This document shows, one piece after another, positions 436 through 64,000 of a stretch of 64,000 nucleotides of DNA; position 1 is the first letter of the stretch, and each line of letters opens with the position of its first letter. Origin of the DNA: Branchiostoma floridae (taxonomy: Eukaryota; Chordata; Leptocardii; Amphioxiformes; Branchiostomatidae). A program made the position numbers and the translations under genes. Below the pieces are notes generated by a model. That model saw only the letters and a program-made list of their open reading frames with translations, was not told where the DNA came from and did no database searches. The stretch covers positions 18,873,994 through 18,937,993 of the forward strand of contig NC_049990.1 of NCBI RefSeq assembly GCF_000003815.2. Direction: 5' to 3'.

Positions 436-2198
436 CATCTGATGGCTGCACCGTACAGTTACCTCCGGTAGGAGGCGTGTTTGTCACAAACTGGAAGTCA
501 AAGATTCCCGGTGAGCGGCCATGTTGTCTGCCTGTCACACGTATCTGGTACATTGATCCGAATCGCAGGGAGTTCTTCTTCACCACCAGTATCGAAGATC
601 TTGCCAAATTTGCTGTTGAAAAATGGTACTTCAGTTTACAAAAGACAGAAAAGCTGAACTAATAAATCAGAAGGACGCCGAATCTTTGTACTTATACGAG
701 TAGTGGTACTTTCACATGATTTGCACGTTTTTTTACATTCCATTTATCATTTGGTTTTAATTTTTGTTTATGTGCTAAACAAATAAAATCGAATCAAAAT
801 CTGCTCTCGAACGAGATCTCCTCAGTACAGTGTCACTGACGAAAGATAGAGGATTCTACCTGAAACGTCTAACCGTTTCCAAATCATATCCAGTTGCTCG
901 ACTAATCGCTACGTGGCATACCTTATTACCTGGATGTCTAACCTTCGTCGACACAAGTCATGATATGTTAAACATTTTTAAGTGTACTGTAAGTTTTTCA
1001 AATATCACCAATGAGCAAACAATAGTACATACTTATAGTTGCGTTTTGTTTCCAAGCTGGAATTAGTTGGTAGTGAGAACCATTGTAAATTGCCAGTTCC
1101 CAGTCCAAAGAGACGTCACCGGTTGTACATGATGTGCACTCCGCTGTAACAGTCATGTCACTTCCAGGGCTGGTCTTCAACCTGCAATTCTCCACACATC
1201 TGGAAATAGGATTAGATAGATCAATGGTCACAACGTAAGAAGACCCAAAGGCACATAAAGACTACGGGTTACATGTATAATTGTTAGATGTTGCTCACGG
1301 AAGAGATGTTCTATCTTCCACTGTTAGTGACAGATAAAACAGACACTATGTACAGTATTTACAGGTTTATTGTATCGGGGAAACTGCCCTCACTTTTGTG
1401 ACAAGCACATTAAACAGTGGACCATGGCTACGCATCTGGTCCTAAGAACTTCGTCCCTTTCCGGTAGCGTGCATGTCGGGTGGGCGACCAAGCTGGAGTC
1501 GAACTCACGGCTTCTAGTTCTAGAGGCTGAGCCGCTGACCACTGGACTACGCTGAACTGAACGCTACCTACGCACTCTCAGTTACAAGTGAGACATACAT
1601 TATACACAACACAACTTGATGCCTCACCTTATATCAATATCGTGCGGTTCACCTTCTGCTATGGTCACAGACTGGTCGAAGAAGGAGCATCTGGTATCTT
1701 TCCGCGCCTCTACCCTGAACACATACACAGAATGGACCTGCAAAAGAAAGACAATGTCGACGTAGTTACCACGTAAATGAATAAGTGTGCACACATTTGC
1801 ATGTATTTGCATAAGTGTACAATTTTGTCTGGTCGACGATAATATGCTACTGACGCAATATCAAACAGCGTTTTATTGCAGAAAAAAATGATTTAAAGAG
1901 TGTCATCGGAAAGAATCACCAAGATATGCATCACAATAGCGGAGCACACGTCAAGAAGCACAGGTGTCTTAGATAACAAAGGAAACTCTCAAGACTACCA
2001 GTAGTAATTTTTGGTACTTGGACGACAACATTACCTGGAGACTGCGTGTGTCTTGCAGTACAACTGTGCCGTCGCTGTGATTCCTCAACAACTGGCCCTC
2101 TCCAAAGCAACCGGCACCACGCAAAGCGGATGAGACGCTGGTGCATGCTTTCGGAAAAGCGTCTTCGGCTTTGCGACAAAACCAGGTGAAGGAGATGC
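436..2198 (-). CDS. REJ domain exons (middle part) of the polycystin-1-like protein
   Basis: Four exons, 2198-2035, 1737-1628, 1199-1033 and 612-436, continue the REJ (receptor for egg jelly) domain started at the end of the giant exon. Seen: an aromatic/cysteine strand (ISFTWFCR) matching the family YxWxC position, a segment ending in a Q-x-V-T-I strand, a paired-cysteine segment (CVENC then CTSC) followed by a tryptophan strand, and a proline/glycine-rich stretch (TNTPPTGGNC) typical of the REJ core in polycystin-1 and sea-urchin suREJ proteins. Phases are 1-0-2-1-1, all consistent, with donors GTAATG, GTGAGG, GTATGT and GTAAGA. In known family members REJ leads to a GPS self-cleavage site and a PLAT domain; neither is in this window. 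The domain is incomplete because the gene runs off the left edge. Confidence 0.88.
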
Positions 2199-5100
2199 CT
2201 TAAACATAAGACAAAATGATGTTCGTTATAAAACGACAACGACCGTTCCTCAAGTATTACTTGAGAGAGGACTGATCCCAAATATCTTGCCTCATAGTCA
2301 TGCTACGGTTGTGAATACAGAAATCTGACCAAAGCTCATAGAAGAACATAAATGTGTCCATGCGTTCCTCATAACTATGGAGTAACGTTCATGCGTCGTG
2401 AACACTTTATGATATTATGATAGCAATTAATGGAAAATGTCGACAGTGTAAAGTTACGAAATTTGCTGGCGCTGATACCTGTGGAACTATGTGGATCATC
2501 AGGGTCGAATGACAGATGAGTGGCGTTCAAGACGAGCGGTCGTCCATACCCAGCTGGTCGGGCCACACCACCCTTAATTCCCGCTATCAAGTCGGACTTC
2601 ACCACCTCGATGAAAACAAAGTCACTACTTTCCACAGATGTCATATTCGGCATGGACACGATCAGCTCAATTCTGTAGAGTCCATATTGAAACACCAGTG
2701 GGTCCAGATCTACATCAGCCGTTTTCAATGTTTGTATCATTTCCGATGGATAAGGTTCAAACTCTGGCACAATGCTTCTGTTGGAAAAGTCTACAGCCTG
2801 ATACGCTCTCCATGTCATGTTAGCAAACGTTTCAGCTTTACATTTGAGTTTAACATTTGCACTAACACGGATCCGACTACTTCTTGTCTCTATCCGAGGT
2901 GAGGTCATGAACCTTCCAATGCCGAGTACTCTTACAAACGGTCTCTCACATGGCCAACCTATTCGTGCCTTTGTTTCTAACTGCTGTACAGAAATGTCGT
3001 TGAAGGCAAATACAGTGACGGTGAATATTTCATCTATGCCGTAACTGTAATTGTGAACGAGGGTGTCGGTCTCGTGTATTGTTATGGTTGTGTCTCCAGC
3101 AAAGTTACCCATATCAAGACATTTCTCCGATCCATAGACTGTCCTCTGGGTATTGTCTCCCATGTCGAAAATAATACACGGGTCTGTACCAAACTGGGTT
3201 ATCTTCAAAATGAATGATACGGTGGAGCTTTTATTGATAACAGGTCCTGTGTTGAACAGAGATTCCAAGATGATCGCCTTGCGTACTGCAACAGCAAGAT
3301 GAGCGGTTGTATTTGCCACAGGGTTGTCAGCTGCAAGAGTGACGTTATAGTTACCAACAGTATTGTATTCATGTTCAACTTGACTGTCGCTTGTTACAAC
3401 CAGAGCAGTACTGTCCCCGAAATCCCATGTAAACGTAACGTTACTGGCAGCCTTGTGGGTGGCTTGGAGACTAACAGGTTGGGACATGTTGTGATATGAG
3501 ACAGCAGAAGCCGGGTGAAGCTGTTTTATCAAGTCTGGGTCAACGCTGTACAACGGAAAGATGGTAAGATCTTCAATGATTCCAAACACGTATGCTTTGG
3601 TTGAGAGCTCGACACGACTCACAAGGTTAGATATAGTGAGATGGGACGTATAGACGCCATCTGTGGAATATACATGCTCGTACGTTGTGACGGTATCCAG
3701 GCTTGTAGTGATGATGTCTGTCTCCGTGTCCCCAAAGTCCCAAGACAGAGTCGGATCAGTAGGAACATTCGTGCTTTCTCCTATCTCAAGCTTGAACGTA
3801 ACGACGCCAGGAGGAGTTGCAAAAATACCAGCAGAGCTCAGTGTGACATCGGCTACTGGGTATTGCACGGTGACGAAGTGATTTTCGCTGTATGCATGAA
3901 ACTCATTAAACACCATTACAAGGACGGTGTAGAGTCCTGGTGATTTGTAACTAAATGAGAATTGAACAGCACCGTTCGGTCGGTCCTTGCTTGTGTATGT
4001 GTTGTTTTTATCACCAATGCCGTAGTGAACTTGGAAGGTTAAGTATGAGCCAGTCTCCACGGTTGTGTTGACTGTGAAGTTTGTACCAACAGGAACAGCA
4101 GTGTTGCTGATTGAAGACCTGAATCCACTGATTCGTTCAACGATGTTCACTCTTGCAGTGAAATTTTTCTCGCTGATAATATTATAGCAATGCACTTGTA
4201 CAAGGATGGTTCCAGTCACGTTATAGTGATGGGTAACAGAGATGGTATTGCTGTTGGCAATGTCGTATTCCGTTTTAACCATATCAGTCCCATCACCGAA
4301 GTACCAGTGAACCGACAAGTTTGTCGGAGACGCTACATCATCTGGCCAAGTTAGCTGATATAGCGATACCCCGGGAGGGTAAAGAATGGACGTCTGATAC
4401 AGTAGCGTGACGTTTCGTATCGGATGTTGAACAACGACAGGTTCAGTTAAGTGGCTTGTCACCTCGTTTAGCTTGTTATACGCATTTACACTAACGACGT
4501 ATAATCCGTCGTCATTGTACGAGTGGGTTACAACTGAGGGGAACTGAAGATTGTAAGGTGCTTCCTGGACAATCATTGTCTGATTTCCATCACCGAACAT
4601 AACTGTGTAGACGATATGGGACCCGGCAGTCGTGCTAATTGTAAAATTTACACTCTGTCCCACTTGGATCTCTGTTTTGTTAGTAGCAATGACAACACCA
4701 GCTATCCTTTCCTGAATTTCGATCTGCTTTTTCACTGTGGCGGAGCTGACAAGGTTCATACATGTCAGAGACACGACCAAAGTGCCTAAGGATTCTCGCG
4801 CATATTTGTGATGTTGTTTACGGCTTCCGTTGACAGTCACAGCGTCTACCTTTTCTTGAAGAGAGACGCCATCGCCAAAGTCCCAGATATACATGGCGTC
4901 CGTCGGCAGAGAGCCGTTCAGATCGACACGAAATTCAGCATCACCTGGCGGGAACACGAGTATTGCAGGCGCGACCAGCACAATATCAGGAACAGGCATT
5001 TGTACAACAATTGTTTCGGGTAATACAAAGTCCTCTTGACTGATCTCGTTGAATGCCACGACGGTGATGGTAAAGTTCCCAGCGGTAGCGTACGCATGTT

Positions 5101-8100
5101 CAACGGCAAAGATTTTCTCGAGGGCCCCTGTGTTACTTTGAGAGATGGAAGTTTCATTGCCATCTCCGAAGTCAATACTCATCGTTACTCCAGATCCATG
5201 CTCAATAGTGATCTCAATCTCAGCGGCCTCCTCTACAGAGATGTTCTGTTTGGTAACTGTTACAACTAAACCCGATATAACTTCTTCGAAGACGACCAGT
5301 ACGTCGAATCGTTCCGAATCAATTATGTTCTCACACGTGATGGTCGATAAGTAATTAGATGTTGGAGATGTTGGCGTGTAAAGGTGTTCTTCGCGATCTT
5401 CAAGCCCAGAGGAAAGATTAGAAGCTTTTCGAGCCAAGACGATACCATCACCAAAGTTAAAGAGTACACTGAGGTTAGAAGGAGGAGCTGTGCCTCTTTC
5501 AACACTAAGAGTGATCTCAGCAATGCCAGGCGGCAATGGCACAGGGTTGTTGACGGTTACAGTAAGATTGACGATGGGATGTTGCACGAGAAGCTTATCA
5601 GCAAGGCTGTAATTCAGCATGCTCACGTCGTTCTCCACACTGATATCTACTTGAAAGGATCCAGATGTCTTGTAAGTGTGAACAATCTGGAAGGACTCTT
5701 CGGAAGCAAACATCCGTGGGGAGCTGGCGATATCTGTAAAGCCATCACCATAGCTCACCGTGAAAGTAGCATGTGAGCCGGTGACTACTGTCATAACAAA
5801 AAGCACGTCTGCTCCGACAGCGACTTCATTGCCAGGTAGTATCGTAACGGACAAGCCCGAAAGTTCCTCCTGTACTTCAACTTCGCGTTCCAGTCTTCCA
5901 TAGCTGACAAGATTGTATGCCTCTATCGTAGCATCTATACGCCCTACGTCGTCCCTTCTAATGGGAAAGGTGCCACGGTGTGGGTATCCGCTAGACAGAC
6001 TCGCGGAGTAGGCTGAGGACGTGTAGCCATTGCTAAGAGACACATTTACATAAACGTCTGTAGGAATGTCGTCGGAGTATTTGAAGACCAACCTGAATGG
6101 ATGCTCGGCAGAACCTTGCGATGGCAGTGCAGCTACGCTGTCAGTTTCGAGAAGCAGTTCGTTCAAAGGTTTCTGCACCACAATGCCAGGTTCGGAGGTC
6201 TTCCACTGCAATGGCCCGGTAACGTTGTTGGTCAACACAACGCGTACTATGTACTTTCCCGGTTGTTTGTAGATGTGTGTCCAATTGAAACTCGTGACAG
6301 GGCCGTCTCGGTACTCCTTGTCGTTTTCTCCGTCCCCATAGAAGATGTTGAACACAACCATATTAGCGGCTGAAAGGGTAACCGTTCCGTTCACTTCATC
6401 ATAGACTGCAATCGGTTCTAGAGAAAGAGTTACCTTCAAGTCCGTTATCTTTGTCTGAATGGCAAATTTTCTCGTGAAGTTGACTTCACTCACGTGGTTT
6501 TTGCAAGCCACCCTTGTAGTGTGTATGCCCAGTAAGGAACCAAATGTATAGCTCCAATAATGAAAGCTGTTGAAAAATGATAGTTGATCGGCCACAGGGG
6601 ACAGTAGGGTGTCCTCCAGGTAGTAATGACATGAAGCATCTGTTGGTGCGGGGACATCTTTAGCCAGTCTGAAGGTATAAAGAAGTTCCCCTGGAGGTGC
6701 AGAGATGAAATCCGCAGTAAGCAACTCAATGCCTCTGATAGGATGCTCGGAAATCACTCGATAACTCAAAGATACTTCTTCTGTGCCAAAGTCATTTGTG
6801 GCTACCACTCTAACCTGGTATCGACCTGTGTACGTGTATGTGTGATTTAGAGATATGACATCCTTTTCCCACGGTTGTGCACTGCGATTGGCTAAGACAG
6901 TAACGTCGCCAAAGTTGACCTCAAAGATGACACCTGATCCGGTGGTGGTTTTGACCATGATGTGCAGAGGGTCTTCATTGGTGCGTAGATGGACACTGTT
7001 ACACTCCAATGTTAGGTTGGTAATAGGAAGCCCCACGCGCAAAGGAGCGGTCCAGTTGAGATGGCTGACGTCGTTATACACATTTACCGTTACATTGTAG
7101 TCCCCACTACGTTTGTAGTAGCGCTGGTATGTCGTAACGGAATCTTCAATGGGGTCACCTTCTACCTTGTGAACTAAGTCATCACCGAAATGCATGTCAA
7201 CAAATGCATTATCAGGCAGCTCGTCTCCGATGTTAACTTTAATTGTCACATTAATCGGCAGGGATGAATCCGGGGAATCTACAACGTCAACGTCCAAAGA
7301 GGAAACTGGGATTTCGCTAATGATGAAAAAGCGGTCTCTCCATCTCTCAAAATTAGTGGCAACCTCTAGAAGTACCAGGTTGTCCAAAGTGTCATTAAAA
7401 ATCAGGTGCGTTGTCACATTCCCAGTGTCACCACTCTGTAGAATTGAGAGTTCATGATTGATGTACCACATCAGGTCCCAACGATATCCTTCTCCGACAT
7501 CCATTGTGACGTCTAGAGTCGACCCTCTCTCTATAAACTCTGGATACTGCCCTGTTTTTATACTTTCAATCTGCCCTCCTATGTCAATGAATGAGTAAGC
7601 AACTTCTTTACTCGCCGAGTTTTCTGCAACAAGTTCGACAATATAGGTACCTTGGTCTGAGTACTGGTCAGAAGTAAGAGTATGCGAGATTCTTCCAGGG
7701 ATGCTGTCATGTATTGACATATTGCCGTAAAAAGAGACATTGGCACCAAACGATAGCATGTACCACACACGCGTCCCATTAAACAACGTGTAGTTGAGTT
7801 CTTGGTCGTCTCCAAATACATACAATTTGTCAGTGATGTTGGTGTCAACGACAACTGCTTCTTCAACTTTCACAACAGCAAATGCTGTTACATTGCTTTG
7901 TTCGTTACTGCAGTAAAGAGAAGCATGATATATTCCAGAATGGTTGTAAGTGCGGTTTGTCAAAACGTAGGGGTCAGAATAGTTATTTTCTAACCAATCT
8001 ACTGGATCGAGGTTACATTCGCTTTCGCCGTCTCCAAAATCGAGTGTACAAATCCCCTTGGCGGAAGGAACCGGGGGATGAATTTCAAACACAGTAAGGT

Positions 8101-11100
8101 CCTGCACCAGTTTTGGAGAGGCATGAAGCCAAATGTCATCAAAGTAACCAAAATCCTCGGTTATATTGACCAGCGCTTCAACAGTCTGCGAGGATACCAC
8201 ATTTCTTGCTCTCACACGGATACGCTGCGTGCCTGTTGTATTAAAGCAAACGTAACGTGGAAATGTTACAAATGTGATCGGGTCACCGTTGATCCAAAGT
8301 TCATATGTTACATCGTCGCCTTCCTCTACTGTCACGCTGATTTGCACGGTGTCATTCACAAAGACAAGCTTTGTTTCTGCGTGCAATATGTCTACATGTA
8401 GACCAGATACTGGTTTTATTTGGTCTTGTTCTCGGTATGCAGTTATGTAGTAAAAAGCACTGCAGTTTCGTGGATCCGATGTTTGGAGTTCTGATACTGT
8501 ATTACAACGTTCGCCGGAGGAACCACTTACAGACCTCGCACAAAGGCATGTTGACTCATTGTGAATGTTGGAATAACGGTACAGTAATCTTCCACAAGCT
8601 CGTCTGCACCCTGCAGATGTAAGTTCATCACTGGTAACCTGGATTGCCGTGAAGCTTGAATCGCTGACACCGTTGATGCACCCAATGATGTATGGGTCTG
8701 CAAAAGGATCAATGCAGATGAAGAGCCATGTATTACAAAACAATCATAATAAGAACTACAATAGAACTTGAACAGTCTATCAGGAAAAAGCGATGAACTG
8801 CATCTTAAGCCGAGAGAGGCATCTTAAGACACCATTGCCGGGTATGATTGCTTTCAACTTTGGTTCTCCTCACCATGCTGTTATCAATATGCTAACAATT
8901 GTAATGGAAATGTACATTCGCGTGGTGTATACTTATAGTTTAAGCAGACCTAAAGCACAGAGGTCGAGCTTTTCCTACAACAGAAAGAAATTCCAGGAGC
9001 CAAGGAAGCTTGCAGGATGCAAAGCACAATGGAAAAGGATGAAGAAAGACTGAATGCAGCTATAGGACTTTCCAAAGATGCAGAACCCAGTGACTGCTGC
9101 TGCTGTGCGTGTGTTAAATCTACATGAAAGAACAGTCCTTACTTTATGCTTACTGAAAGAAGAGATAAAACACTTACCTAGATTTCCAAAGAATGCAATC
9201 TCGCCTACCGCGGGCGAGATGTCGGATTCTTGAGAGTACGTAGAGCTGAAATGAATCTTCCACAGTCTACCTGTAAAAGACGAATATACCACTAACATTA
9301 AAGTTACTGCGTCTGAAACTACAAATTTCTAAACTAAGTGAATAAGACGAAAGTTAATATATTTCCTTTCACAAAATCACATTCGTTATGACTCTTCTTC
9401 TCTTTAAAGCTACAGGCACTTTGTATTTTTCTGTTTTCTACTCCACTCTACTCTACTCTACTCTACTCTACTCTACTCTACTCTACTCTACTCTACTCTA
9501 CTCTACTCTACTCTACTCTACTCCACTCTACTCTACTCTACTCTACTCCACTCTTCTCTACTAAGTTTAGGCTCGAAAAGGCTCTTACCCGTGACATTGA
9601 AGCCAGTAAATATCTGCACTTCTGTATTATTCAAAGCTGTAAAAGTAGCAACTTCCATCCACCCACATGCCTCAGTCAAGGCGGCTGTCATCACTGTAAA
9701 AGTCTTCACTTGGCGGTTATGTTGATTTGAGGCGCTTTGAATGGCCAACTTTGAAACTGTGTAATAATCCTGCAAAATTGAAGTAAAAAATCTGTTTGTT
9801 TTCTTCAAATATATATTGATCTCCGGTAGCGGTGATGATGATAGGATATGTACACAGCATATAAGTTAAGTGTTTTAATGCATATATATGACTAATATAT
9901 GAATAGAAATATATAGCCTGAGTTGTCCAGCAAATAAACTTATAGGAACAAAAAAGTATACTGTATTTGGATCTGAAGAGAAACTGCTTTCAGTGTCTAC
10001 TGTTTTCAGTAGATTCTTGAATTGCTTGTTACCAGTATTTCTGATCGTTCTAAGAAAAACATTGATAGTGTTTTTATCGTACTTCTTGACTTGTGTGAGA
10101 CTCATACTATGTAAACGATGTAAATTGTGCCTCTGTTATATACTTTGTCTAACCCGTGCATCTTCCCTCATGACCACAAACAAACAAAGAAACAAACAAA
10201 CAAACAAACATACTAGCATGTATTACCTGTAGATCGTACACGATGTAATACTCGGTGAGACCTATTGCCCACCACGGTCTTTCAAGACTATTGTCAATGG
10301 TGACCCTGGCGGAACGGCGAATATCAGAATTTGGGTCCTCCTCGGCAACAGAGAGGGTACTCTGCGGGATCCATTCACCAGGCATAGCTAAAATAACAAT
10401 CAATGATCATTTGCTGTGATATAAGAATAACCAAAAGAGTCGACCAGTAGAACAGTAGTCGAATTATCGTATTAAAGAATTGCTTTCAGGATGTACATCA
10501 CACCAACCCTTGATTGAATAACATAGCTAAAGTAACAATCAATAATAAACTGCTATGATTTAGAGTAACCAACCAAGAGAGTCTACCAGTAGTCAAGTTA
10601 TGGTAAAAACGAATTGCTATAAAAAGCACATCATGTCAATCCTTAGTAAAATAACCTAAAACTGCAACAACATCAAAATCAAACCTAATATCTATGTACC
10701 TTTGAATTTAGTTATTGCTGTTTTTCGTTGAAGAGGTTCATCAATCACGTATGCAAACAGTTACAACAATTTTCATCAATCAATGACTGTTTTTGAAAAG
10801 GTACAGTACATACCTCCCAAATTTTCGATGTCTACCAGTACATCATCTTCAGGGGAATGACCTAATCTCAGTTCTCGCGAGAGAACACGAGACTAGGTCA
10901 TGCGTAAGGTGGCCATCCACATTCAGCTAGAGGCTGCGTAGTTGAACCGGACAGAGGGTTGGGAGCTGCCCAAGTGCTACCTACCCCTTCTCCGCAAGGA
11001 GGCGGGGGGAGGGGGCAGATGATCCACGCAAGCCTGACCTAGTCTAGCGTTGTCTCACGAGACATGAGACTAGGTCCTTCCCCTGAAGATGATGTACTGG

Positions 11101-14100
11101 TAGACATCGAAAATTTGGGAGGTATGTACTGTACATTTTCAAAAACAGTCATTGATGGATGAAAATTGTTGTAACAGTTATTGCTGTTTGATTTTAACAT
11201 GTACTGTACTAGTATATGCAAAATTAACACAATTCGGTGGCACAGGCTCTACAAATTGTGCATTGCTATTTGCATGGTTTCACCCAGGTTTCACAAAAAT
11301 GGAATTTAAATTGAAATTTGGCAAGATCCTACAAATAACTTTTACACGATCGAAGCATTTCCGTTTTGATGAAGTAAAATAACGTTTTGATGAAGTAAAT
11401 AAATGTGAAAATTTACCTTGTTGTAGATTTTCAAGGTCGCGAAGCCCTTCCCAGAAGTAGATGGACTTTATCTTGACTTCAGCAGGTGTGCCGGTGGATA
11501 TAAGCCCCCTGCCGATGTAAAACGTGCTGTAGATGTCTTCAGCGGACTCAATACCAGGCCAGTCCCACCCTTTGGAACAAAAAAACATGAAGTAAAGCAT
11601 TAATAGTGATGGGTTAAAAATTGCACTAGTATAAAAGCAATATTTTAGAAACTTAACAATGAAGCTAAGTTAAAGTGAATCCTGCAGAATTCATCTTGTA
11701 CCAGGAAAAGACATTCTAAAATCTTTACCTCGAGAATATCTTAAATGCCATATACGATTGATAACAACGTATTTGTATTTTCCTCACTTATTTTTATGCT
11801 TTTACCTTTCAGAATATAGCTTACACTATAAAACATTTGTGTCTTAGATTAATAGATGTGTAACCCCTATATGTGAAAAGGAATTGGACGTTACTCGTTC
11901 AACTTTGTGATATTCAACATTACATTTTGAGCCACTGTTCATAAACGCCAAAGCGTATTTACTGGTATTCATGTGCTACGCAGTGTTACAGACTACGTCA
12001 GATATCCAGATCGAATGGCCTCGTTTCAGTCTCAACAACAGGAATTGAATTTCCTGTTATTTAAGCAAATTAGGCCCTTATTTGCAAAATTCGCATAAAA
12101 ATTTGAACATGCATTTCATTGTTCTCTGTCAAAGCTACCAGCATACCGACTATTATGGAAATCTGTCGTTCATGTGTTCAATTATTCTCCTTGGAACTTT
12201 TTAACAACAATGTCACACATCAGTAGGCCCAAAGTCAACCTTGACCTTCGTGTCAACTAGACCTACACGCATACCAAATATTATCGTAATCAATCGGAAA
12301 GTTATGACCATAAATATCTGCAAAAACACACCAAAAACTATACCTCAATATTTCGTGGAGGTAATAACAGAAAGATATCTAGATGTATTGAAGCGACTAA
12401 CCTGTCTGGTCCCTCAAGGTGTGTATACCATCAACGGACAGGAACAGTCCACCCTCCGGGTACCACTTCAGCGCGATATGGGCCCATTCCTGGTACAGGT
12501 TGAACCTAACCTTCCACATTCTGGAGCCGTTGTTTAGACCTACCTGCAATTCAACGATAGAAAACAGTCAAATGTTACTTTGTATGCAATTATAATGAAA
12601 CAAAACTGTTGCTATCACTGACCATGAGAGGGATGGAATGACCAGAATGGGTTTGTTTGTTTGAACCTTTATTTATTCATGAGAAGCTCAAATCAGCTTG
12701 AAGTCCGCTTCTCATTGATCATGAGGTGATGAAGAAGGTAAGGGTTAGATAAAATATAACAGAGATACAGATTATATCGAGTCCTATTAAATCCATATAC
12801 ATAATAACATATATAGTGGAGCAAAAGCCTTGTCCGTTCCTTTTGGTCATTTACTTAGAGTCTCTTTAATCTAAATTCTAAGATACTAAGATTAATTATA
12901 AGTAATTGAATGTACATACAGTATACAGAATATGGTTCTATACCTACAATACTATTGCGGGGGTTGACTTCTTTAAAACCAGTTGAAAATAAAAAATCCA
13001 ATATTTTCGAAAAAAAAAGATTCTATGGTAGGTTGGTTTGATGATCTCAGTAGAGAGAGTATCATATACCTGGATCCCTGGCTTTTATCGATTTAAAGAT
13101 AAGGATGGTTTTACGATCCCAGACACCTTATCGACTTAACTAGTTCGCTAACAGATATACTCTGGATGCCTTAAGTTGTCAATGGATTGGAGGTACATGT
13201 GTTGTTCTCGATTAACTCATTAATGACATGTTGGATGAAGCGAAGGAGTCTTACCTCGTAAAGGTTTTTAATATATCCAAAGTAAAATCCTGCAGACATT
13301 TCACTCTCCCCTCCTGTAGAGAGAATGTACTGGTCCGTCAGCAGTCCGCTGTGTTTGAAGGAGAACGCCAGAGTAAAGCCGTATTCACACAGTCGCGGAT
13401 CCGACAGGCACTGGTTTGGGTAGTCACCAAGCTTCTCACTTCCATAAGGTTCTGGTGCTTTGGTAAATTGAATGAGGCATATCAAATGTGTCAATGTCTA
13501 TATAGATTGTATGATTGCTTCCGCAAAAAAACGTAGTCAGTTAATGTCTTTGCTTGCTTGTTTCTGTATCCGTAGTTATGTGAATATTCCAGAGTAGTCT
13601 ATACATGTATATTGTCCAATCAGTGTGATTAGATACATGGGGAGTTGGAAGAGTCGTTTGGGTCGTGTTCATTTGCCCTTGTTTTGATGGGACGGACATG
13701 GACATTTCATTACCATTTTTGTGTGGAAAATTACAGTTCGTTTTTGCTTCAAAATGAAATATTTGGCTAGTCTAAATTTCTCTGGAGGGACAGAAAGCCG
13801 TGCATATGCTCACCAAGGTTTCTGTCGTAGATGACGGATTTTCCATCTTTGTTAGTATCATTACAGGTTCTGATCTTCGGGTGGCACCGCTTGTTGTCAA
13901 AGAAAATGAAGGCAACACAGTCGGGATGGCTCGTGCACCTCTCAGCACACTCCTCTAGGATGATGCCGTCTCCATATATGGACGAGATGTCGTTCCCATA
14001 ACAGTCCCCGGGACGGACGGAGTAACCACGAACGGTGGGAAGTTGAAGATCTTGAATTCATGCAAGAAAAAAAGTAGAATCAAAGGCGCCGTCGGAAAAT

Positions 14101-51656: not shown

Positions 51657-51699
<43 letters not shown>

Positions 51700-54600
51700 G
51701 TATATTCTGTCTCTCTCTATTACACTGGAAAGTGAAACACAACTTTTTGTACCTGCATTGTTTCCGACGAGTGTAAAAGACCTGTTCTGAGAAAATAGGG
51801 ACACGTCTCCAGGGTTGATCCAGAAGGCTGCAGTAAAACCGTTCTCACAAAACTGGGCGTCATGGATGCATGTCTCTATAGTGCTGTTGTCTAACGTGGC
51901 ATTCAGAACTGTGTGTCCGGCAAGAAGGCTTGTGGCGTTTTTTCGGACACCCTAAGTCAAGAAAACCAACATTTTTAACGATACTTAGAGGGATAATAGC
52001 TTTATGGCTAGGTTTGAAGTACATGTAGGTAAAATCAGCATGTGCATTCTGATTGAGCCATTAAGAAGCTAAAACTAATATGAAAGACGAAAAATGTATT
52101 TTAACATTGAAATGAATTTCGTTGAAGAGGTTCATCAATCATGTATGAGAATTCTAGAAGTTGAATTAATATTTCTTAAAGAAAAGAAATGCTAACACTT
52201 TACTTCCAACGCCTAATTAAACTATTGGGACTTATCCCCCTAAACACACACCTTTGCCAAATAAACCAGGTTTGTTCTGTAGAATGATGTCTGTAGACAA
52301 ATGCGTTACTCATTTCATTTCATTTTATGACTATATGCTTGGAGTTGGTTTATAAAATTTCGGCATTGATTAGATCCCAAGTTACAATTGATTGATATCC
52401 AATTGTATCAAGCATTACTTAAGCTATCAGCATACAAAAAATCATGATGATCCTTTGATCCCTTCTTGACTTATTCTCTTTCAAACTCTTTAACCCTATT
52501 CAGACGGGGGGGGGGGGGCTTTTGAGGCCTGCGCCAACTTCGATGTCCTATAACGCCAGAACGCCTTACGCTAAAGCCACCAAATTTAGTGAGTTTTCCT
52601 AAAATATTGTTGGCAACAATTTTACGAAGTTTGACAAATTTTCTATTTTTTCGTGTTGCCATGGCAACCGTTTGCTGACAGGCAGTTTTGCCAAAAATCA
52701 CTATTTTTGGTTCTATCAATGTATTTTTCACATTTATTTGCTATATCACTGCTATTTTGTTACATAAATAAAATCTTATATTATTTACCATATCTTTCAT
52801 AATTATATATGCATAAATTATGCTACTTTGATGACGTCATCAGCCCAAAATCCAAGATGGCGGACATATGGCCAGATCACGAATAACAAGCTAATTATCC
52901 CTTAAAATTTGTAACAACCTGGTATTTTTTCATCAAAAACCATCTAAATGAATGAATTTAGTCTATTTCCATTGCCCTTTCTGATTTTTTGTTGCAAAAA
53001 AAAGTACTTTTAAAAATTCAAGTTGGTGGATATAATATGGCGGAGTCTAACTCGTATCTTAGATGTGCATGACGTCAATTTATGACGTCATTATGACGTC
53101 ATCGGTGTTGCTATTGGCAATACAAGTTGTAATAAACATTATTATTCTGTTATCTGCACTTGTTGTTACATTTTTGTAGTATAACTTGAAGTTTTCTGAG
53201 AATACCCTTTTTTCATGGGTCCGGCCAATATAATCAAATTGATGACGTCATAATTACGTCATCTACGTCAACGTAACGTCAAACGTCAAATCGTCGTCAG
53301 ATATTATGTCGATATTATGTCCTGGAAATTTTTTGGCCCTACGGCACGTCGTTCAAGAGTTAGAGGACTTAGAAGTGGAGGGCCTCAAAAGCCCCCCCCC
53401 CCCGTCCAGGGATGACCAAAAAAGCCCGGTCTGAATAGGGTTAAATACACCTCTTAGACTCTTCCCTCTTTCTCAGTTACATATGTAACAACTTTGAAAG
53501 TACTATACTTGAATGCAGTGGATTTATGAAATTTTCAATTATGCAAATTCGCTGTTATATAAGTCTCACTTAGGCTATTTACATGCCAAAAATCATGACG
53601 ATCCGTCAACAAGTTAATATTTTCTCATTAATCATGCAAATGAGGTCGTCATTTACATGATAAATATGTATTGACATTTCTCTCTTTCTCAGCTACATAT
53701 GTGACAAGTTTTAAAGTCCTATCATGGAATGAAGTGGATTCATGAAATGTCCTCATTAATTATGCAAATTAGCTGTTGATTTACATAATTGGTATCTCAT
53801 TATGTAGGTCTTCACTTACGCTACCTACATACCAAAAAACATGATGATCCTTCAACATGTTCATATATTCCCATTCACTATGCAAATGAGGTAATTATTT
53901 GCATAATCGATATCTATTGACATTTCTCTCCTTCCCAGCTACATATGTGACAAGTTTGAAAGAACTATCATGGGATGCAGTGGATTTCTAAACTTTCCTC
54001 ATTGATTATGCAAATTAGCTGTTGATTTGCATAATTAGTATTCCATTATGTCATCACTCATTCTATCTACATACCAAAAATCATAACGATCCTTCAACAC
54101 ATTCTTGAGTTATACTCGTCCAAAGTTTGAAAGGAAACTGGCAGTTCCAAAAAAGCCGCTAGGGGGTCCAAACTCACAGCACTTATTCTTTTTTCCAAGG
54201 GCTATCTACCACTCAAAAATCATGTCCAGAACACGAGATATGAAAAATTGAGTTTCCGCTGCAGTACCTTAGCAAGCCGCTAGGGGGTCCATTATCGAAC
54301 TTGACCTTCATTTTCCCTACCCCTATCCATCTACTAAATATCATCAGGATCTATCCAAGGCTTTTCGAGTTATGCTGTTGACACACACACACACACAGAC
54401 ACACAGACTCACAAACATGCCCCAAACATAACCCTAGCCATTCTGGCAAAGGTAATTAGAATAATTCTTCAGTGATTTTTGAATACACGTAAAACACGTA
54501 CCTCCCAATCTTCGATGTCAAGTTATACTGAGCAGACATCGAACATTTGGAGGTATGTGTCTTACGTGTTTTCAAGAGTCACAGATTTAAGAATTATTCT

Positions 54601-57600
54601 ATCAATTGAAATTAATCTATCATTAGAATTGCATTAATGTATGTATTCGTAGGATATTTTAGCAAAAGCTAGATGAACTCAACTTTACTACATGTCTCCT
54701 AGGTTGTTTGTTTACGAAATGTGTATTGATCGAGTGGGTGTATAGAAAGTATAAAGTTCGATATTTCTCACCTTAACGACAGTAACATTTCCGTATATCT
54801 GCAATGGCACAAACCCTTCACCGTCGCGGAAGAAATACTGTCCATAGGCAATGTGTAGATATTTTCTATGATGTACAAAAAATGGAGATGACAACTACAT
54901 TAAATAATCACAAAATCATATTTGACTAAAATTTACCATTGCTCTGATTATATTTATAAAAAGACCCTATTACTGTCAAAAGTACCATTAGCTAACTACG
55001 GGTAAAGTTGATTTCTTGATTTTAAACCTTAATTTTATGTCTGTGTATACTTTAGACATTTAAACAAAACTATATTCTTCTAATGATGGAATAGATGTTT
55101 TTGTACTATTTGCCAAAGGGCACAGTTGAGCTGACTGTATTTCACAAACTTGATTTTGCATGAAACATTAGGCTCTTGGTGTCCTATACACAATTTAAGA
55201 CACCATCGCATTTGATTTGTATAGATAGCATGGGTTTGTCTTATAGCACGAACCATGTGGCATTAATGAATGAATGATTTATTAATTTGTTAAGCATAGT
55301 AGCCTATAGCTGAATTCTGTAAAACATGTACATCACAAGGGAGAGAGCTCTCCTATTTCAGACATAGTATCTTATATCATATAATGGAGCTTTGCACGTA
55401 ACAGAAACTAGACTAGAACGTTTTGACCTTGCACGCGTAACATATTTGATAGATGGTAGGGCACCATTGTTTAAAGTACAATGAGTATCTCACTTGTGGA
55501 TGTTGTGACGCTAACTGCGGCACCGAGCCCATATTGAATAGAACGGAGGATGATCTTGTAGGTCGTCCCGTGGTTCAGGCTTGTGAACTGGACCTAGACG
55601 AAGTTGAGAACAACCACAATACACAGTGATCAGTAGAAATATAATATACATGTGCTTTCATTGTAAGTATCAAAGTCATCCATTGCTATCATTGCTTTAT
55701 ATATATATATATATATACATATACCATCGTAATACTACTTGTCTCACAAATATACTTGTTAGGCTAGTAATCAAACACAGATCACCTCCTTATCTGAAGA
55801 TATTCCTTGATTTGCGTTGTTTGTATAATGTAGTACGTAAAACAAACTTTATGTATCGGTAAACGCAACGTAACTGTTGCGGTTATCGGATTATATATTG
55901 TGCAGTTACAAGCGCAAGGGCTAAAGCTCAATAATAACTAGTTGGGCAGCCCTGGCTGCAGTTCTCTTTATACAACAGAATAAATTAAATCAAATGGCCA
56001 TCATACAATATTTTGAGTGTAAGTCTATTATGTTGACATAAAGTGAAGAATTCAGTTAAATCTTGTTCTGTTTACCACAAATAAAATGATTATTTGTGAC
56101 TCATGTGCCATACTGATCATAAGCTATACATATCCCTCAATCAGGGCATCAATTACATAATTACATGGTTAAAACAATTGATGAAGAGGGTACGAAATCA
56201 CTGAGTTCTAGTTTACATGATTTATAAAGTAAACACATGTAGTAATGTAATATTCACTGACGGTTCGTTGTTGATCATAAGGTCGATTCCAGATGAATGG
56301 TACACCGTGATTCGGGAGGTGTTTTATTTCGTAATGGTGAACATGGCCAGATGGTGGATGCTCCCACTCTACCGTGATTGTATCCTCATCTCGGTAGGGG
56401 ATGATTACATTTGTAGGAGGCAAAGGTTCTGTGGACAACATCGATATAGACACACTAAATTTAGATCAATCAATCAATCAATCAACTAGCAAGTAAACAT
56501 GATTTTTGTCGTTAAATTGAATTGTACTGCCAGTTTATTCTAGTAACGCTGAAGGGGAGTGATGGATGTCACTCGAAACGTCCGAAAGTAAATCTACGTT
56601 TTTTTCATTATCCAGTTGTAGAGAATAATTGTATTTGGATATTGTTTACCTGGATGTCTATCCTTCATAAATGTAACTGGCAATTAGTAAACACTGTGTC
56701 ATAGATTTTATCAAACTTAGCCTTTAAGGGTTACAATGATGACACTTATTGTTATGTTAACCAAAGACGAACTATTAGTTTGTACTTTGTACAATGACAG
56801 CCTATTTGTATGTATGATGACAGCCTATTTGTATGTATAACAGACAGCCACCGACAACATGTACACTGTACAACAATAACCCTTTGAGTTCGTATACACA
56901 TGTTTTAAGAAAAGGGAAGAGGTATGTAAGCAAGAGATATAGTGATAGCATAGCTCCAAATGTATTTTTCCAATTGTTCACTTGTAACACTACATGTAAT
57001 AGTACTCTTATCCTTTGGTATCTCATGTAACACAATGACACTGCTGCATTTGTGCATTCAAATAGAGATCATGATCATCATTAATCTTTTTATAACATAA
57101 CATGACATGACATGACATGACATGACATGACATGACATGACATGACATAACATAACATAACATAACATGATTCATTCTGCTCACAGAACGTCAAATTTCA
57201 TAACTGATAGCTAATGCACCATAGACTTCGGGCGTTTCATTTAAATTGGTGTGTTGAAGAGTTGATGATTAATTTCTCGGTTAAGTGGATATCTCACCGA
57301 ACCTGTGACACGTTGGTGACCTCGCTGCAGCAGTGCGATTTGACAGAGCGTTCAACAAATTTCCTCGGCAAACATAATTTTTTAATGCTTTGTGTGTTCT
57401 GTTGTCTATCAGTCATACTGAGTACGTGTTGCATTATATTCCCATTGTAAAACCAAGGGTAACACAATTAGAATCTAGGATGCAGCGATCACTTGCAGAG
57501 ATGTCAAGATGTCACAGTCTGGTGAGATATCCACATCACGCTACTAGCGTACGCAAATCTAACTCACTTGTATATATCACGTATAGAACATAAACGGGTT

Positions 57601-60600
57601 CGCTCTCCATGTTGCCGGCAATTGCAACCATAGAAACGTTGAATGCGCATCCTGGAACCAACCCGGTGACTGTCGCCTGTAAAGAGATGATGCATTTTAT
57701 TTATATACCATACCATACCGTCCATGCATCATGATGACGATATATGTATTAGAGACAAGCGCACTTAAATTGCATATGTTGTAGATTAAACATGTATATG
57801 TTGTAGATTGCTAAAAGATCAAAGGAAAGCATATAAATGTCAACGTCAATTCCAAGGGAAATGAGGATTTGAAAACAAAAAAGGAAGAATCTATAGTTTG
57901 GTAATTTGTTCAACCTTCCAAACCACCTAGATCTCATAATGAAGGCAAACTTCTTCTTTTTTTCATTTGCATGCTGGCATTAGTTTGGGGATTCCCAGAG
58001 GATGCCATCCATGTAATAAAATCAATGCCTAATAAATTTGAAATGAAAAGGCAGAACATTCAACCGCACTGATACAAAACATGATGTGAGCGAGTATACG
58101 GACAACTCAGGCTTAGCTCACCAACTCTAAAATGTATTATTACATCAGTAATTCATTTCCTAGAAAAAACATACCGATATTCTGTTCTGTCCAACTGAGA
58201 TAGTGATGCTGTCGCCACAGTCCGACTTTAACGGCACCACTGTGATGTTATAGGAGTCCACGTGACCTTCTGAGGCGATCCAGCTAACAGGAATTTTCGA
58301 TGAAGTCACATGCGAGGGATTGACGGAGGTCATGGCAGCAGGGACTGGTGGTGAGAAAACGTGACATAGTCAAAGACATAAAAGTCTGTAGCTAGTCATT
58401 GTAATGATGTGGGATTCTCAGTATACAAACTCATAGAAATCTGTTACGTTATAGAAATGATAGACATCACATGTGACTAGGGGTGTGTACCGGTACAGAC
58501 ACTTCAGGTACAGGTACGGTCCAGAAGTCCAAGTCCGGCCCTGAACCTTGACCTGATTATCTGTTAAAACTTGTGATATGGGCAATACTCAAGACACCGT
58601 GCCGGTACCCACCACTACATGTGACTATCATCCCTTTTAAAATGTCAACCCAGATACCATTGTGGTAGGCTTGATCCAATCACACTAGGAAATACCCAAA
58701 CTCTTTCCGAAAAAAAAGTGTGGTGGATCCTTTAACGTGTTCGATGTTTGGTTCGCCTCAAACAGGGGACCTCCATTTAACGACGGCCTTGTCCGAAGAT
58801 AGGTACTCTTTTCCTCTTAGTGAAGTGAGGAAATCTTGTAAAATGCTTTTCCAAAAGGCACAAGCATAGAGCTGATTCAATCCTGGGACCTTTGGGTTGT
58901 GGGCCAAACACACTGACGTTACGCCCCATTAACTCACGATCAAAAGGTAGGATTTGTAAGTGATAGCGCTAACAACAAGTCTACAAATAAAACGATATCG
59001 ACAATTCTACTCACCCACTCTGCCTGTTGATGAAACTGGTTCACTAAACACAAAACGGCTGATACTGTACACGGTAATGTTGTACAGCCTCCCTGGAACC
59101 AGGTTCCTAACGAAGCAAAAAGGTAAATGTGTTTCAAACATTGATTTCACCACTCCAAGAAGACAAAATTTGTAAATAGCAAAGGTATTATCAGTTATGA
59201 ACAGATTTGATAAAGGTGCATCGATTCACAAAACATCACTTCTAAGATATGGTACTGGTTCAACTTGCAACTGTAGAAAAATTGATGTAAGGTTCTTGCT
59301 TATGAAATATAGTTACAACATCTCCCCCAGGATGGCTTGTAATACTGTAACTGCATTTAATTTCGCGGGATTTAATTTCGCGGTAGCGGGAAAAGAACTT
59401 TTCGCGGTGGTTTTAAGTTTGCGGTAGTGCCATGCACTATAGGCTCTTACTGCAACGCGAAAATCGCGAACATAAAACTACCGCGAATATTTCTGCATTT
59501 ACAGTATTTGGACGGTAGCTTTAATCCATCGTAACAGTACCATGTGCCAAAGCTTTGAAAGACAATTTCTGACGTGAAATGGAAATTTAAAAAAAGGTGG
59601 TAGACTTACTGGAACGTGAAGGATGTCAAAGTGGTGTTGGTGCTTGTTTCCTCCATTCCGTCAGCCACGGTAGTCAGTGTTAGTCCATATATGGCGACTG
59701 TCCCACTTGGAGCAGCCCATGTGACGTGTAGACTTCGGTTCTGGGACATAATCTGCAGACCTTGAGGTTTCCCGGGCGCTGCGGTTAGAACAAACAAAGC
59801 TTTTACTCTATTTTAACCAGAATAAGGGAGAGGGACTTGTTCAAGTGAGAGGGACTTGTTCAAGGGAGAGGGACTTGTTCAAGTGAGAGGGACTTGTTCA
59901 AGTGAGAGGGACTTGTTCAAGTGAGAGGGACTTGTTCAAGTGAGAGGGACTTGTTCAAGTGAGAGGGACCTGTTCAAGTGAGAGGGACTTGTTCAAGTGA
60001 GAGGGACTTGTTCAAGTTAGAGGGACTTGTTTAAGTGAGAGGGACTTGTTCAAGTGAGAGGGACTTGTTCAAGTGAGAGGGACTTGTTCAAGTGAGAGGG
60101 ACTTGTTCAAGTGAGAGGGACTTGTTCAAGTGAGAGGGACTTGCAATTGTTCAAGTTGACATCCGTCTGTCTCGTTATTTCTTTTGTGGGTAAAATGATA
60201 AAGATAAGGTCCCCTAACTTTAAAATAGTTTTCCTCTCGACCATTGTCTCAATTTGCATAACATTGTTCGGACGTGCTTTGTTTATGTCCCAGGGGCCTT
60301 CACCTTTGACATATTACCCACTGTTCCTATCGCTGCACATGTGTACTCGGAAGTGTGAAAAGAGCTTACCTTACGTACAGCACACATTTGAATATATATC
60401 AATCTGAATGGCACTCATTGTAATGTTGAAACATAGGTGACATGTATCCTTACGGGTTGCTACAGTGACGTTTAGTCCTGTGCTGAGGACTACCTCTCCG
60501 CTGATATTCACGCTGGAGTACAAAACTGCGGTGTATTCTGTCCCGGGCACCAGACCATCCATGACGTAACTTAGACCTGTCACAAGAGAGAAAAACGAAC

Positions 60601-63600
60601 CGTGCAATATATATTAAATTCTTGTTTCAGGTTTAGCACAGTTGTGGATGACAAGTATTATGGACTTAATGTGTACAACACCAACTTTGAATAATCACTT
60701 CAGATTTGATTGAAAACTGAATTAAAAATTTGTCTATCGTATTGTCTGTTAATTGCCCCAGTTGTTCTTCCCCTTGAATGTAGATATTATGTCACTATCA
60801 TGTAAAGTGAATGTAGCGAAGTCCTACCCGTATATAGTACTCGTGGAGCTCTCATCGTTTAAGAATGTTTCAGAGACATACCTGGAGCACAAAAGACTTG
60901 AACCTCGCACACTTGTAGCGTCCGTGCGGATCCGGGAAGACGGATTCCCACGTAACGTCCCTGCATCGCCGGGCATAGGATGGTAACGAACACCTGGTTC
61001 TGCGCGGCTACATGATCACCGCCACACTTCGGGTTCGTGCTGACCTGGTCGGATTCCCCGATGTGGATGTTGAAGGGGTTGATTCGTCCCCAACAACAGT
61101 CCTGACGATTGACGATGACCACTCTGTTGACATTGAAGGCGAAGCAATGTCACATCTATAGTTCTTCGGATTTATATTTGTATATCCGTTGTATAGGTAT
61201 ATTCAACGATCTAATATTGATGTATCGAGTAAAAGCCCGAAAAGAGTCTTTAAATTATTCGCTTAACGTCCACGACCCCATACCTCCGCTAAGTGATTTC
61301 AACCTTTACGCTATTAATGTATCATCTACTATCCTCATTGATTCAACAAATAGACATAATTACACTCATTTTCATATATTATGGCGGTTAATCATCTTAA
61401 NNNNNNNNNNNNNNNNNNNNNNNNNNNNNNNNNNNNNNNNNNNNNNNNNNNNNNNNNNNNNNNNNNNNNNNNNNNNNNNNNNNNNNNNNNNNNNNNNNNN
61501 GAGCGCGAAGGTCCACTCGGCGTTAGCCACGGGATACCCCTTTGTAAATGAAGGCCATATTTGCATGATTAATAAGGCAATACTGCCATTCCGTGGTGGT
61601 AAATGGCGTAACATTTAAAAGTTACGAGAAGACGAAGTAGGACCTCATTTGCATAAATGGCTGATCAGAAAAATCTTCGTGTATCCTATCAAAGATGAGA
61701 CTTACATACTTTTGACAAATTCTGTTGTTTAGCTTAAGATGATTAACCGCCATAATATATGAAAATGAGTGTAATTTATGTCTATTTGTTTAATCAATGA
61801 GGATAGTAGATGATACATTAATAGCGTAAAGGTTGAAATCACTTAGCGGAGGTATGGGGTCGTGGACGTTAAGCGAATAATTTAAAGACTCTTTTGCAAA
61901 TTTAAAGGCAACCTGAGCAATATTAGATCGTTGAATGTGGAAAAAATATGGATAAGGCAATTTGTACAATAGTGACATCTAATGTACTATTTTAGCACAT
62001 TTACATCATTATTTCATAAATTGAGCCATTAGAAACGGCACAGAAACTAGTCCCACAAGGATTCCTGATCAAGGCCTAATTTTTTTTTTGGGGGGGGGGG
62101 GTCCAATAATAAGGAACATCCTCGTGCGTCTTGTCTCTGGGCCGTTTTTAACTGCTCAAATTGTAAAATAATGATGTAAATGTGGGAATACAGTGCGGTA
62201 GATGTCAATATTACAGATTGCCTTATCCAGAATATTTCCACTCATAACGCTGTGATATTACTTAGGGTGGCTTTATAATTAAAAACTCCATGCTGTACAC
62301 GTACCTGTCAACAGTATACGATTGACCAAGATCCACCCACCAGCTGGGATCAGATTCTTCCTGTGTGTGTGTACAGGAACCAGCGCCCATTACGGTACTG
62401 ACGATCCCGTCTACGGCACGGTTGGCAGCAAAGACATGGTTTGTGCTTGATTGAAACGCAGTCTTCCCCTCGGCGATATTGGTATCTGTCTCAGACAGGA
62501 GGATTTTCATCAGCAGTGTCTTATTTTGTTTCATTGTTTGAACCATTGTTTATTCATGAAAGCTCAAATCGGCCTGCTGGCCGCTTTTCATTGAGGTCAT
62601 GAGGGAAGAGACAAGGGTCAGATAATGTATATAACAGTTTACGTCATTAAAAGTCCTAACGAGTCTTGTAAGTCTATATACACAATTTTACATACATAGC
62701 ACAAAATACATAATAGCGAGAGACATGATTCGAGTCCATTCATATCGGTCATTTCCGATACTTTAAGAGTCTCTCAAAGTAAGCCAGTGTGTATGTCTGG
62801 TGGTAGGCTTGTCATTGATATTGTAGTTATCAATATCAATGTTGTATTGAAGTTTCAAATTTTAAAGTTACTCCCACCCTTGCGAGAGTTTTATACGCTG
62901 CTACATTTTACCGTTAATACCTGCTTAGCTATACTAGGAATCTAAGTAGAACGCATACTGTACCTGAGGATACTGTAGATATATCTGCATGTAAATATCT
63001 AATATTACAATCTCTAATGCTATATGCTACAATCGTTAGTAATGTTATATGCTACAATGAAATCGTTCTGCTCTATGACATGATTCTATTAGTAAAGCAT
63101 CGTAATGTCTTAGCAACAAATAAGCCACTTGGCTGCCACAGTGGGACACTTTTTATCTTTGTTCAAAACGAGCCATTCTTATAATCCGCCATGGATTTTG
63201 GCCTATGACGTCATCAAGTTAGCATAATCTATGCATATTTAATCATGTAAGATATTCTAGATCACATATTAAGATTTTATTCATGTAAGAAAATAGAAGT
63301 GGTATAGCAAATAAACGCGAATAAAAACATTGTTAAAACCGAAACTAGCTATTTTCGTCGAACATGCCTGTCAATATACAGCTATCATGACAACAAGAAA
63401 ATTAGAAAAATTCCAATCTTTGTAAAATTGTTGCCACTTAAATTTTTGGGAAAAGTCATAAAATTTGGTGGCACTAGCGCAAGCCGTTCTGGCGTTATGT
63501 GACATGAAAGTTGGCGCAGACCTCAAACCACCACCCCCCCACTGCCTGTTCCACAATATCAAAAACATAGGGGTGATTTCTGAGGATTATCACATCGATT

Positions 63601-64000: not shown

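Follow-up and report, generated by a model that had tools for sequence, protein, structure and literature searches.

A probable polycystin-1/REJ-family gene with a long lectin-rich head, and four PAQR genes apparently nested in one of its introns, in Branchiostoma floridae

The stretch of Branchiostoma floridae DNA analysed here (64,000 nucleotides, called the window) holds what is probably one giant gene on the minus strand, truncated at both window ends, and four PAQR-type genes on the plus strand. The intron-rich, animal-type layout of the window was the reason for building a gene model of our own; G+C is 35–46% per 4 kb throughout. The model combined codon log-odds, trained on a 2,122-aa open frame (2375–8743, minus strand), with simple weights for splice sites and exact tracking of phase; later versions also gave LamG-like stretches a bonus and used a retrained codon table. 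The resulting splice-and-codon model runs from 62,485 to 436 in 49 exons and gives a single open frame of 5,070 aa with no internal stops, open at both ends; the best parse opens with an internal exon. An earlier sequence-only reading had proposed 51 exons in one phase-consistent frame. The model gives 49 and one possible partial FN3 exon (64000–63928), and the single frame stands apart from one exon near 54.8 kb that is frame-ambiguous.

The modules follow one another in the order F-type lectin, FN3, five LamG, WSC, three LamG, F5/8C, PAN, LamG, F5/8-like, WSC, 15–19 PKD and REJ. FN3 consists of three complete copies and one second half, the 3.5 copies counted earlier. The features of the giant gene are:

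63928–64000, minus: possible first half of FN3 copy 1, in an exon truncated at the window edge, with donor phase 1; tentative
60882–62485, minus: F-type lectin (fucolectin), exons 62485–62305 and 61123–60882; Pfam F5_F8_type_C_2 1.3e-19
55494–60576, minus: FN3 array; Pfam fn3 8.8e-30, 3 stretches
60576–60454, minus: FN3 copy 1, second half; gene-model exon
59778–59015, minus: FN3 copy 2, part of the Pfam fn3 array
58344–57568, minus: FN3 copy 3, part of the Pfam fn3 array
56428–55494, minus: FN3 copy 4, part of the Pfam fn3 array
54815–54772 (uncertain), 51951–51753, 51239–51089 and 50694–50516, minus: LamG 1; Laminin_G_3 2.2e-15, hold-out 43.9 bits
47138–49793, minus: LamG 2, four exons; Pfam 6.5e-8, hold-out 62.7 bits
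46806–46663, 43085–42934, 26309–26153 and 25781–25620, minus: LamG 3; Pfam 59.9 bits joined, hold-out 59.8 bits
24547–25206, minus: LamG 4, one exon; Pfam (stretch with units 4–5), hold-out 68.0 bits
23327–24291, minus: LamG 5, two exons; Pfam (stretch with units 4–5), hold-out 96.9 bits
22696–22854, minus: WSC 1, one exon, phase 1 to 1; Pfam 7.8e-6, 26.5 bits
20867–22237, minus: LamG 6, divergent, three exons; hold-out 30.7 bits, best shuffle 5.1, no Pfam match
18775–20654, minus: LamG 7, four exons; Pfam 5.8e-16, hold-out 60.4 bits
17905–18534, minus: possible LamG 8, one exon, LamG by position only
17642–17731, minus: short linker exon of the gene model
17110–16920, 15099–14947 and 14490–14346, minus: F5/8 type C (discoidin); Pfam F5_F8_type_C 8.8e-29
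13814–14050, minus: PAN/apple, one exon, phase 1 to 1; Pfam PAN_1 1.4e-5, 25.2 bits, cut-off 21.4
11417–13457, minus: LamG 9, three exons; hold-out 61.0 bits, no Pfam match alone
9178–10387, minus: divergent F5/8-like, three exons; Pfam 17.2 bits, below cut-off 28.2
2479–8697, minus: WSC 2, PKD array and start of REJ, a single 6,219-bp exon; Pfam PKD 5e-80, REJ 1.1e-15
2198–2035, 1737–1628, 1199–1033 and 612–436, minus: further REJ exons, spliced REJ match

The Pfam run behind the LamG 4–5, fn3 and F5/8 entries used an earlier model; one of its proteins included an exon since rejected (44947–44838) and a misframed one (43039–42934), and for fn3 the run was without exon 55593–55494. The first of these belonged to the first gene model and proved spurious in later models; the first-model frame of the second was likewise rejected and was corrected later. 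Two intervals, 28.15–41.45 kb and 44.78–44.99 kb, were barred from the final model by the analyst's choice, after a low-cost model had placed four short minus-strand exons antisense to the PAQR genes, described below. With the homology bonus omitted, the parse again had 49 exons and the same two ends, though with a codon table previously retrained on a with-bonus model. In chance controls that left out both the 6.2-kb exon and the bonus, the minus strand scored 471 with 53 exons, some of them spurious, while the plus strand, which holds the PAQR genes, scored 180 with 27 exons at the same settings; ten dinucleotide shuffles scored at most 9.7. Searches for Rfam families at gathering score, for tRNA genes, and for plasmid matches to a repeat returned no matches, protein P0001 had none in PDB at E ≤0.01, and six of seven extra ORFs had none in Pfam at E ≤0.1, the seventh giving one weak sub-cut-off match.

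The membrane-near end of the model carries the family assignment. Pfam finds PKD in nine stretches, and an iterated PKD profile of our own finds 19, 15 of them near full length and four partial, at E-values made too favourable by training the profile on this very protein. The earlier estimate of about 17 repeats agrees with the 15–19 of our profile. The REJ domain, spliced over five exons, scores 183.3 bits over profile positions 2–324 of 452 (323 positions), where the window edge truncates it, so the polycystin-type gene very probably continues leftwards past window position 1. REJ is the family-defining domain in the part of PMC1934368 drawn on here, and PKD repeats ahead of REJ, common but not universal in the family, are also present. 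The PKD-REJ ectodomain core thus supports membership in the polycystin-1/REJ family. The WSC that precedes the PKD array is below the cut-off of 27.8 bits (18.8 and 21.4 bits in two Pfam runs; E 0.002 within the 6,219-bp exon). The locus is read as probably encoding a polycystin-1-family receptor with a WSC-PKD-REJ core and a long shuffled lectin head, in a single minus-strand gene, and in substance the domain searches of the spliced protein confirm the polycystin-like protein with a lectin-rich ectodomain proposed earlier.

The modelled part ends inside REJ and contains no GPS, PLAT or transmembrane sequence. The visible sequence, stopping at REJ profile position 324, would also fit a lectin-PKD-REJ protein of the REJ family that is secreted or crosses the membrane once and lacks the membrane part of the polycystins, and the sea urchin REJ proteins described in the relevant part of PMC1934368 have anywhere from 1 to 11 membrane segments. 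Such a protein is quite improbable here: the coral, sea anemone and full-length fish pkd1 entries with WSC-PKD-REJ also carry PLAT, and the sea anemone and several of the fish entries have a channel-like membrane part, as far as the published descriptions consulted go.

Ahead of the polycystin-type core lies the head, in which about nine LamG units had been counted. Pfam Laminin_G_3 matches units 1, 2, 3 and 7 and the stretch holding units 4–5; units 6, 8 and 9, submitted alone, have no Pfam match. In a hold-out test, in which each unit was scored by a profile built from the remaining units, eight of the nine passed. Unit 8 scored 4.3 bits, less than the best of 500 shuffles (10.0), and is unproven as LamG. 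The LamG profile gave 50 rows against PDB at E ≤0.1, mainly weak hits on lectin folds of the concanavalin-like type (an S-layer protein, an arabinanase, sialidases, binding domains of bacterial toxins and pentraxins, for example), which are to be read at the level of fold only. Of the smaller modules named earlier – two WSC, a discoidin, a PAN and a second F5/8-like domain – the discoidin and the PAN pass Pfam, while the WSCs and the F5/8-like domain are sub-cut-off, WSC 1 only just (26.5–27.3 bits in two Pfam runs, cut-off 27.8).

The F-type lectin is the one module for which a ligand class, fucose, can be argued from its residues. Against PDB it matches striped bass FBP32 (3cqo, 5.6e-42) and the eel lectin (1k12, 8.2e-19), and the His-Arg-Arg fucose triad and adjacent Cys-Cys are preserved in alignment to both, without gaps through the binding site in the case of 1k12. 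In eel agglutinin, His52, Arg79 and Arg86 form the basic triad that contacts fucose, an adjacent cysteine pair touches the sugar ring, and Phe45 and Tyr46 help to form the pocket for fucose C6 (PMC5712786, in the part used here). The amphioxus domain has Val and Met at the positions of Phe45 and Tyr46, which counts against the fucose binding reading. Residue-level support for the multi-glycan-binding receptor proposed by the sequence-only reading comes from the F-type lectin only; in LamG, WSC, F5/8 and PAN modules generally, the ligand may be a protein, a lipid or a glycan.

The lectin is encoded by a cassette of two exons (423 bp) that is entered and left in phase 1, so it could be skipped with the frame kept. 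A 100-N assembly gap (61401–61500) lies within the lectin intron. The cassette may have been inserted within FN3 copy 1, as a lead: joining 64000–63928 to 60576–60454 gives a Pfam fn3 match of 15.1 bits (cut-off 25) where the second half alone has none, while with a 3-seed FN3 profile the join scores no more than the second half alone (both 13.3) and 321 of 500 shuffles score at least as high as the join. A 19-bp minisatellite (16.8 copies, 97% matches, 59824–60143) occupies an intron between FN3 exons.

That the modules belong to one gene across the window, as claimed earlier, is supported, though not proven, by LamG 3, by the phases at module boundaries and by a multi-gene parse. It has to be weighed against two or more adjacent genes wrongly chained, a 5' gene with lectin, FN3 and LamG and a 3' polycystin-1-like gene. 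The 16.6-kb intron in LamG 3 is an outlier (the next longest is 3.6 kb) and houses four other genes, which would suit a boundary between genes. LamG 3 is complete only across this intron: joined, its halves score 59.9 bits over profile positions 7–151, against 42.5 bits over 57–151 for the right half alone, and the left half alone has no Pfam match. Its middle exon tops 125 in-phase candidates between 46.6 and 26.45 kb (59.5 bits as modelled, 52.4 for its own shorter variant, 51.4 for the best unrelated candidate and 41.1 for the right half alone). That the two halves complete each other across 16,624 bp argues for one gene. All 19 module boundaries carry a phase-1 intron, whereas phase 1 occurs in 9 of the 29 introns within modules (Fisher 6e-7, an indicative figure since boundaries were assigned by hand with the phases known rather than blind).

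The multi-gene parse returned a single gene when a break cost 3, 6 or 10 nats. At a cost of 0 nats two genes were preferred by 1.4 nats, a gain for the chained-genes reading, with the break at 48.2/47.8 kb; this lies inside LamG 2 and would split it, so the integrity of that domain contradicts it. A break near 55 kb was also considered, as no domain straddles that position, and the parse does not choose it. Taken with the phase-1 boundaries and the completion of LamG 3, the position of the costless break inside LamG 2 leaves adjacent genes unlikely and a single gene the preferred reading.

The exon near 54.8 kb (54899–54715, minus strand) has the start of a LamG (YTLPMDSI) and its own end in different frames, which could reflect an assembly indel, an allele or another splice site. 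The frame conflict could also hint at a decaying copy, a formerly functional giant gene that is now a pseudogene. An alternative acceptor near 54.8 kb removes the conflict, and the other 48 exons, one of them 6,219 bp long, are open with consistent phases and codon bias, making decay highly improbable. In the intron preceding the second exon of LamG 1, a 246-bp unit is repeated 2.2 times (53555–54099, 82% matches).

The long intron in LamG 3 holds the plus-strand genes, which lie within the span of the sequence-only reading, on the strand opposite to its gene, and were missed by it:

26310–42933, minus: host intron, 16,624 bp; next longest intron 3,577 bp
28269–28473 and 28915–29672, plus: PAQR/mPR-type gene 1, 320 aa; HlyIII 2.5e-30 spliced, AdipoR2 6.7e-16
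31800–32004 and 32447–33204, plus: PAQR/mPR-type gene 2, 320 aa; HlyIII 3.3e-21 (exon 2)
35721–35925 and 36393–37153, plus: PAQR/mPR-type gene 3, 321 aa; HlyIII 7.6e-25 (exon 2)
39986–40190 and 40620–41377, plus: PAQR/mPR-type gene 4, 320 aa; HlyIII 2.9e-20 (exon 2)

All four genes have two exons and intact frames, and exon 2 alone gives the HlyIII/PAQR domain in each (2.9e-20 to 7.6e-25). Gene 1 matches only AdipoR1 and AdipoR2 chains in PDB at E ≤0.01; the mPR (membrane progestin receptor) label is our assumption, from sequence features. Genes 1 and 2 arose by recent copying: they are 97.2% identical, have a dS of 0.04 where the other pairs have 0.27–0.34, and lie within a 3.6-kb duplication of ca. 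92% DNA identity. All six gene pairs have a dN/dS of 0.30–0.33; this was computed from the alignment and is unaffected by the one-residue shift that makes the positional identities of gene 3 artefacts. The four are separate, intact genes on the strand opposite to the host, apparently housed in one of its introns. Read in antisense, PAQR exon 1 has an open frame and splice-like ends in each of the four copies, and at low exon cost the gene model chose it; the resulting minus-strand "exons" of 72–78 bp (28377–28454, 31908–31985, 35829–35900 and 40094–40171) are taken to be artefacts.

Tandem clusters of mPR beta genes in lancelets (PMC6604198) are likewise tandem PAQR genes in a deuterostome; a location inside the intron of another gene is not stated in section 11 of that paper. 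None of the papers listed in the literature search showed PAQR nesting of such kind. If transcripts confirm the arrangement, it would neatly illustrate four genes under selection lying in an intron that interrupts a single protein domain, and it would show how an annotation pipeline could wrongly split the host gene.

Several known systems share core modules with the amphioxus gene and differ in the head. A coral (Acropora) REJ protein has WSC, PKD, REJ, GPS and PLAT (PMC4890752), and Nematostella polycystin 1 has WSC, PKD, REJ, PLAT and 11 membrane segments (PMC8846589); these are the accounts in the parts of the two papers used. PKD repeats and REJ, and probably WSC given its sub-cut-off matches, are common to the cnidarian proteins and the amphioxus gene, whereas F-type lectin, FN3, a LamG array, F5/8 and PAN are not named for them in those parts. 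PLAT and membrane parts are described there, whereas the amphioxus model ends inside REJ.

The sea urchin proteins SpREJ1–10 share REJ, with PKD in SpREJ2–7 and 10 and WSC in SpREJ6, 7 and 10, and beyond these they carry C-type lectin, EGF and SUEL, unlike the amphioxus head (PMC1934368, sections used here). The main text of PMC1934368 uses none of the words laminin, discoidin and galactose-binding. PKD1 of vertebrates (zebrafish, pufferfish, medaka and stickleback) has the order WSC, PKD array and REJ read for the amphioxus gene in the part of PMC5318412 covered, though its head consists of C-type lectin and, in some rows, LRR where amphioxus has F-type lectin, FN3, LamG, F5/8 and PAN. The same portion of that zebrafish survey reports no invertebrate protein well supported as outgroup for the polycystin-1 family. 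Because WSC-PKD-REJ is common to the coral, sea anemone and fish pkd1 proteins, the membrane-near part of the amphioxus protein looks ancestral and the lectin head looks added.

As for the lectin itself, the His-Arg-Arg triad and adjacent cysteines of the amphioxus domain are shared with the eel AAA (1k12) and striped bass FBP32 (3cqo) lectins. Known eukaryotic F-type mosaics, in the portion of PMC5712786 that treats them, have CCP, CTLD, pentraxin, transmembrane or FA58C partners; its section 13 names no mosaics with PKD or REJ, and polycystic, fibronectin and laminin do not appear as words in its main text. None of the papers listed in the literature search showed a polycystin or REJ member with LamG, F5/8, PAN or F-type lectin, although unnamed predicted proteins may well exist. 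The earlier remark that no described member with a nine-LamG, discoidin and PAN array before PKD was known is in line with this search. The polycystin-1/REJ kind is already known, while the lectin-rich ectodomain is without a described counterpart in the papers listed.

A possible mechanism can be outlined for the protein. Phase-1 module shuffling would have built the head out of F-type lectin, FN3, eight or nine LamG, WSC, two F5/8 and PAN, and the lectin head may bind glycoconjugates, fucosylated ones among them, on the surface of cells or matrix. The steps after binding by the head draw on family knowledge rather than on the window: an extensible PKD array would transmit pull or displacement to REJ, REJ would support autocleavage at a GPS site, and a PLAT-bearing, channel-like membrane part beyond the window would signal with a PKD2-type partner. 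Cleavage of polycystin-1 reportedly requires REJ, according to the title of a cited study. The membrane part, cleavage, partner, ligand and tissue are all matters that we infer, and the ligand, topology and role of a lectin-headed polycystin are accordingly putative, as would be a gamete or epithelial role of the kind suggested earlier.

To our knowledge, the natural ligands of polycystin-1 are poorly known, and a family member that combines a fucose site with PKD and REJ in one chain would provide a concrete ligand to test. For the family, the comparison suggests that the head is the fast-changing, phase-1-shuffled part ahead of a stable WSC-PKD-REJ core. A bolder and very doubtful proposal is that of a reproductive or steroid-responsive locus, in which a fucose-reading sperm or egg REJ receptor would have its transcription coupled to the intronic progestin-type receptors, and splicing the lectin cassette in or out would switch glycan recognition. 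Were the coupling true, transcribing the host or the receptor set would tune the other.

Other sequence in the introns includes short open pieces at 26811–26999 (minus strand) that we take to resemble reverse-transcriptase motifs (..FDIINHDI.. and ..GVPQGNCFAPL..) and that have no Pfam match. Two tandem arrays in distant introns (16215–16563 and 45846–46251) have units of 165 and 163 bp with a similar consensus, and are perhaps members of a dispersed repeat family.
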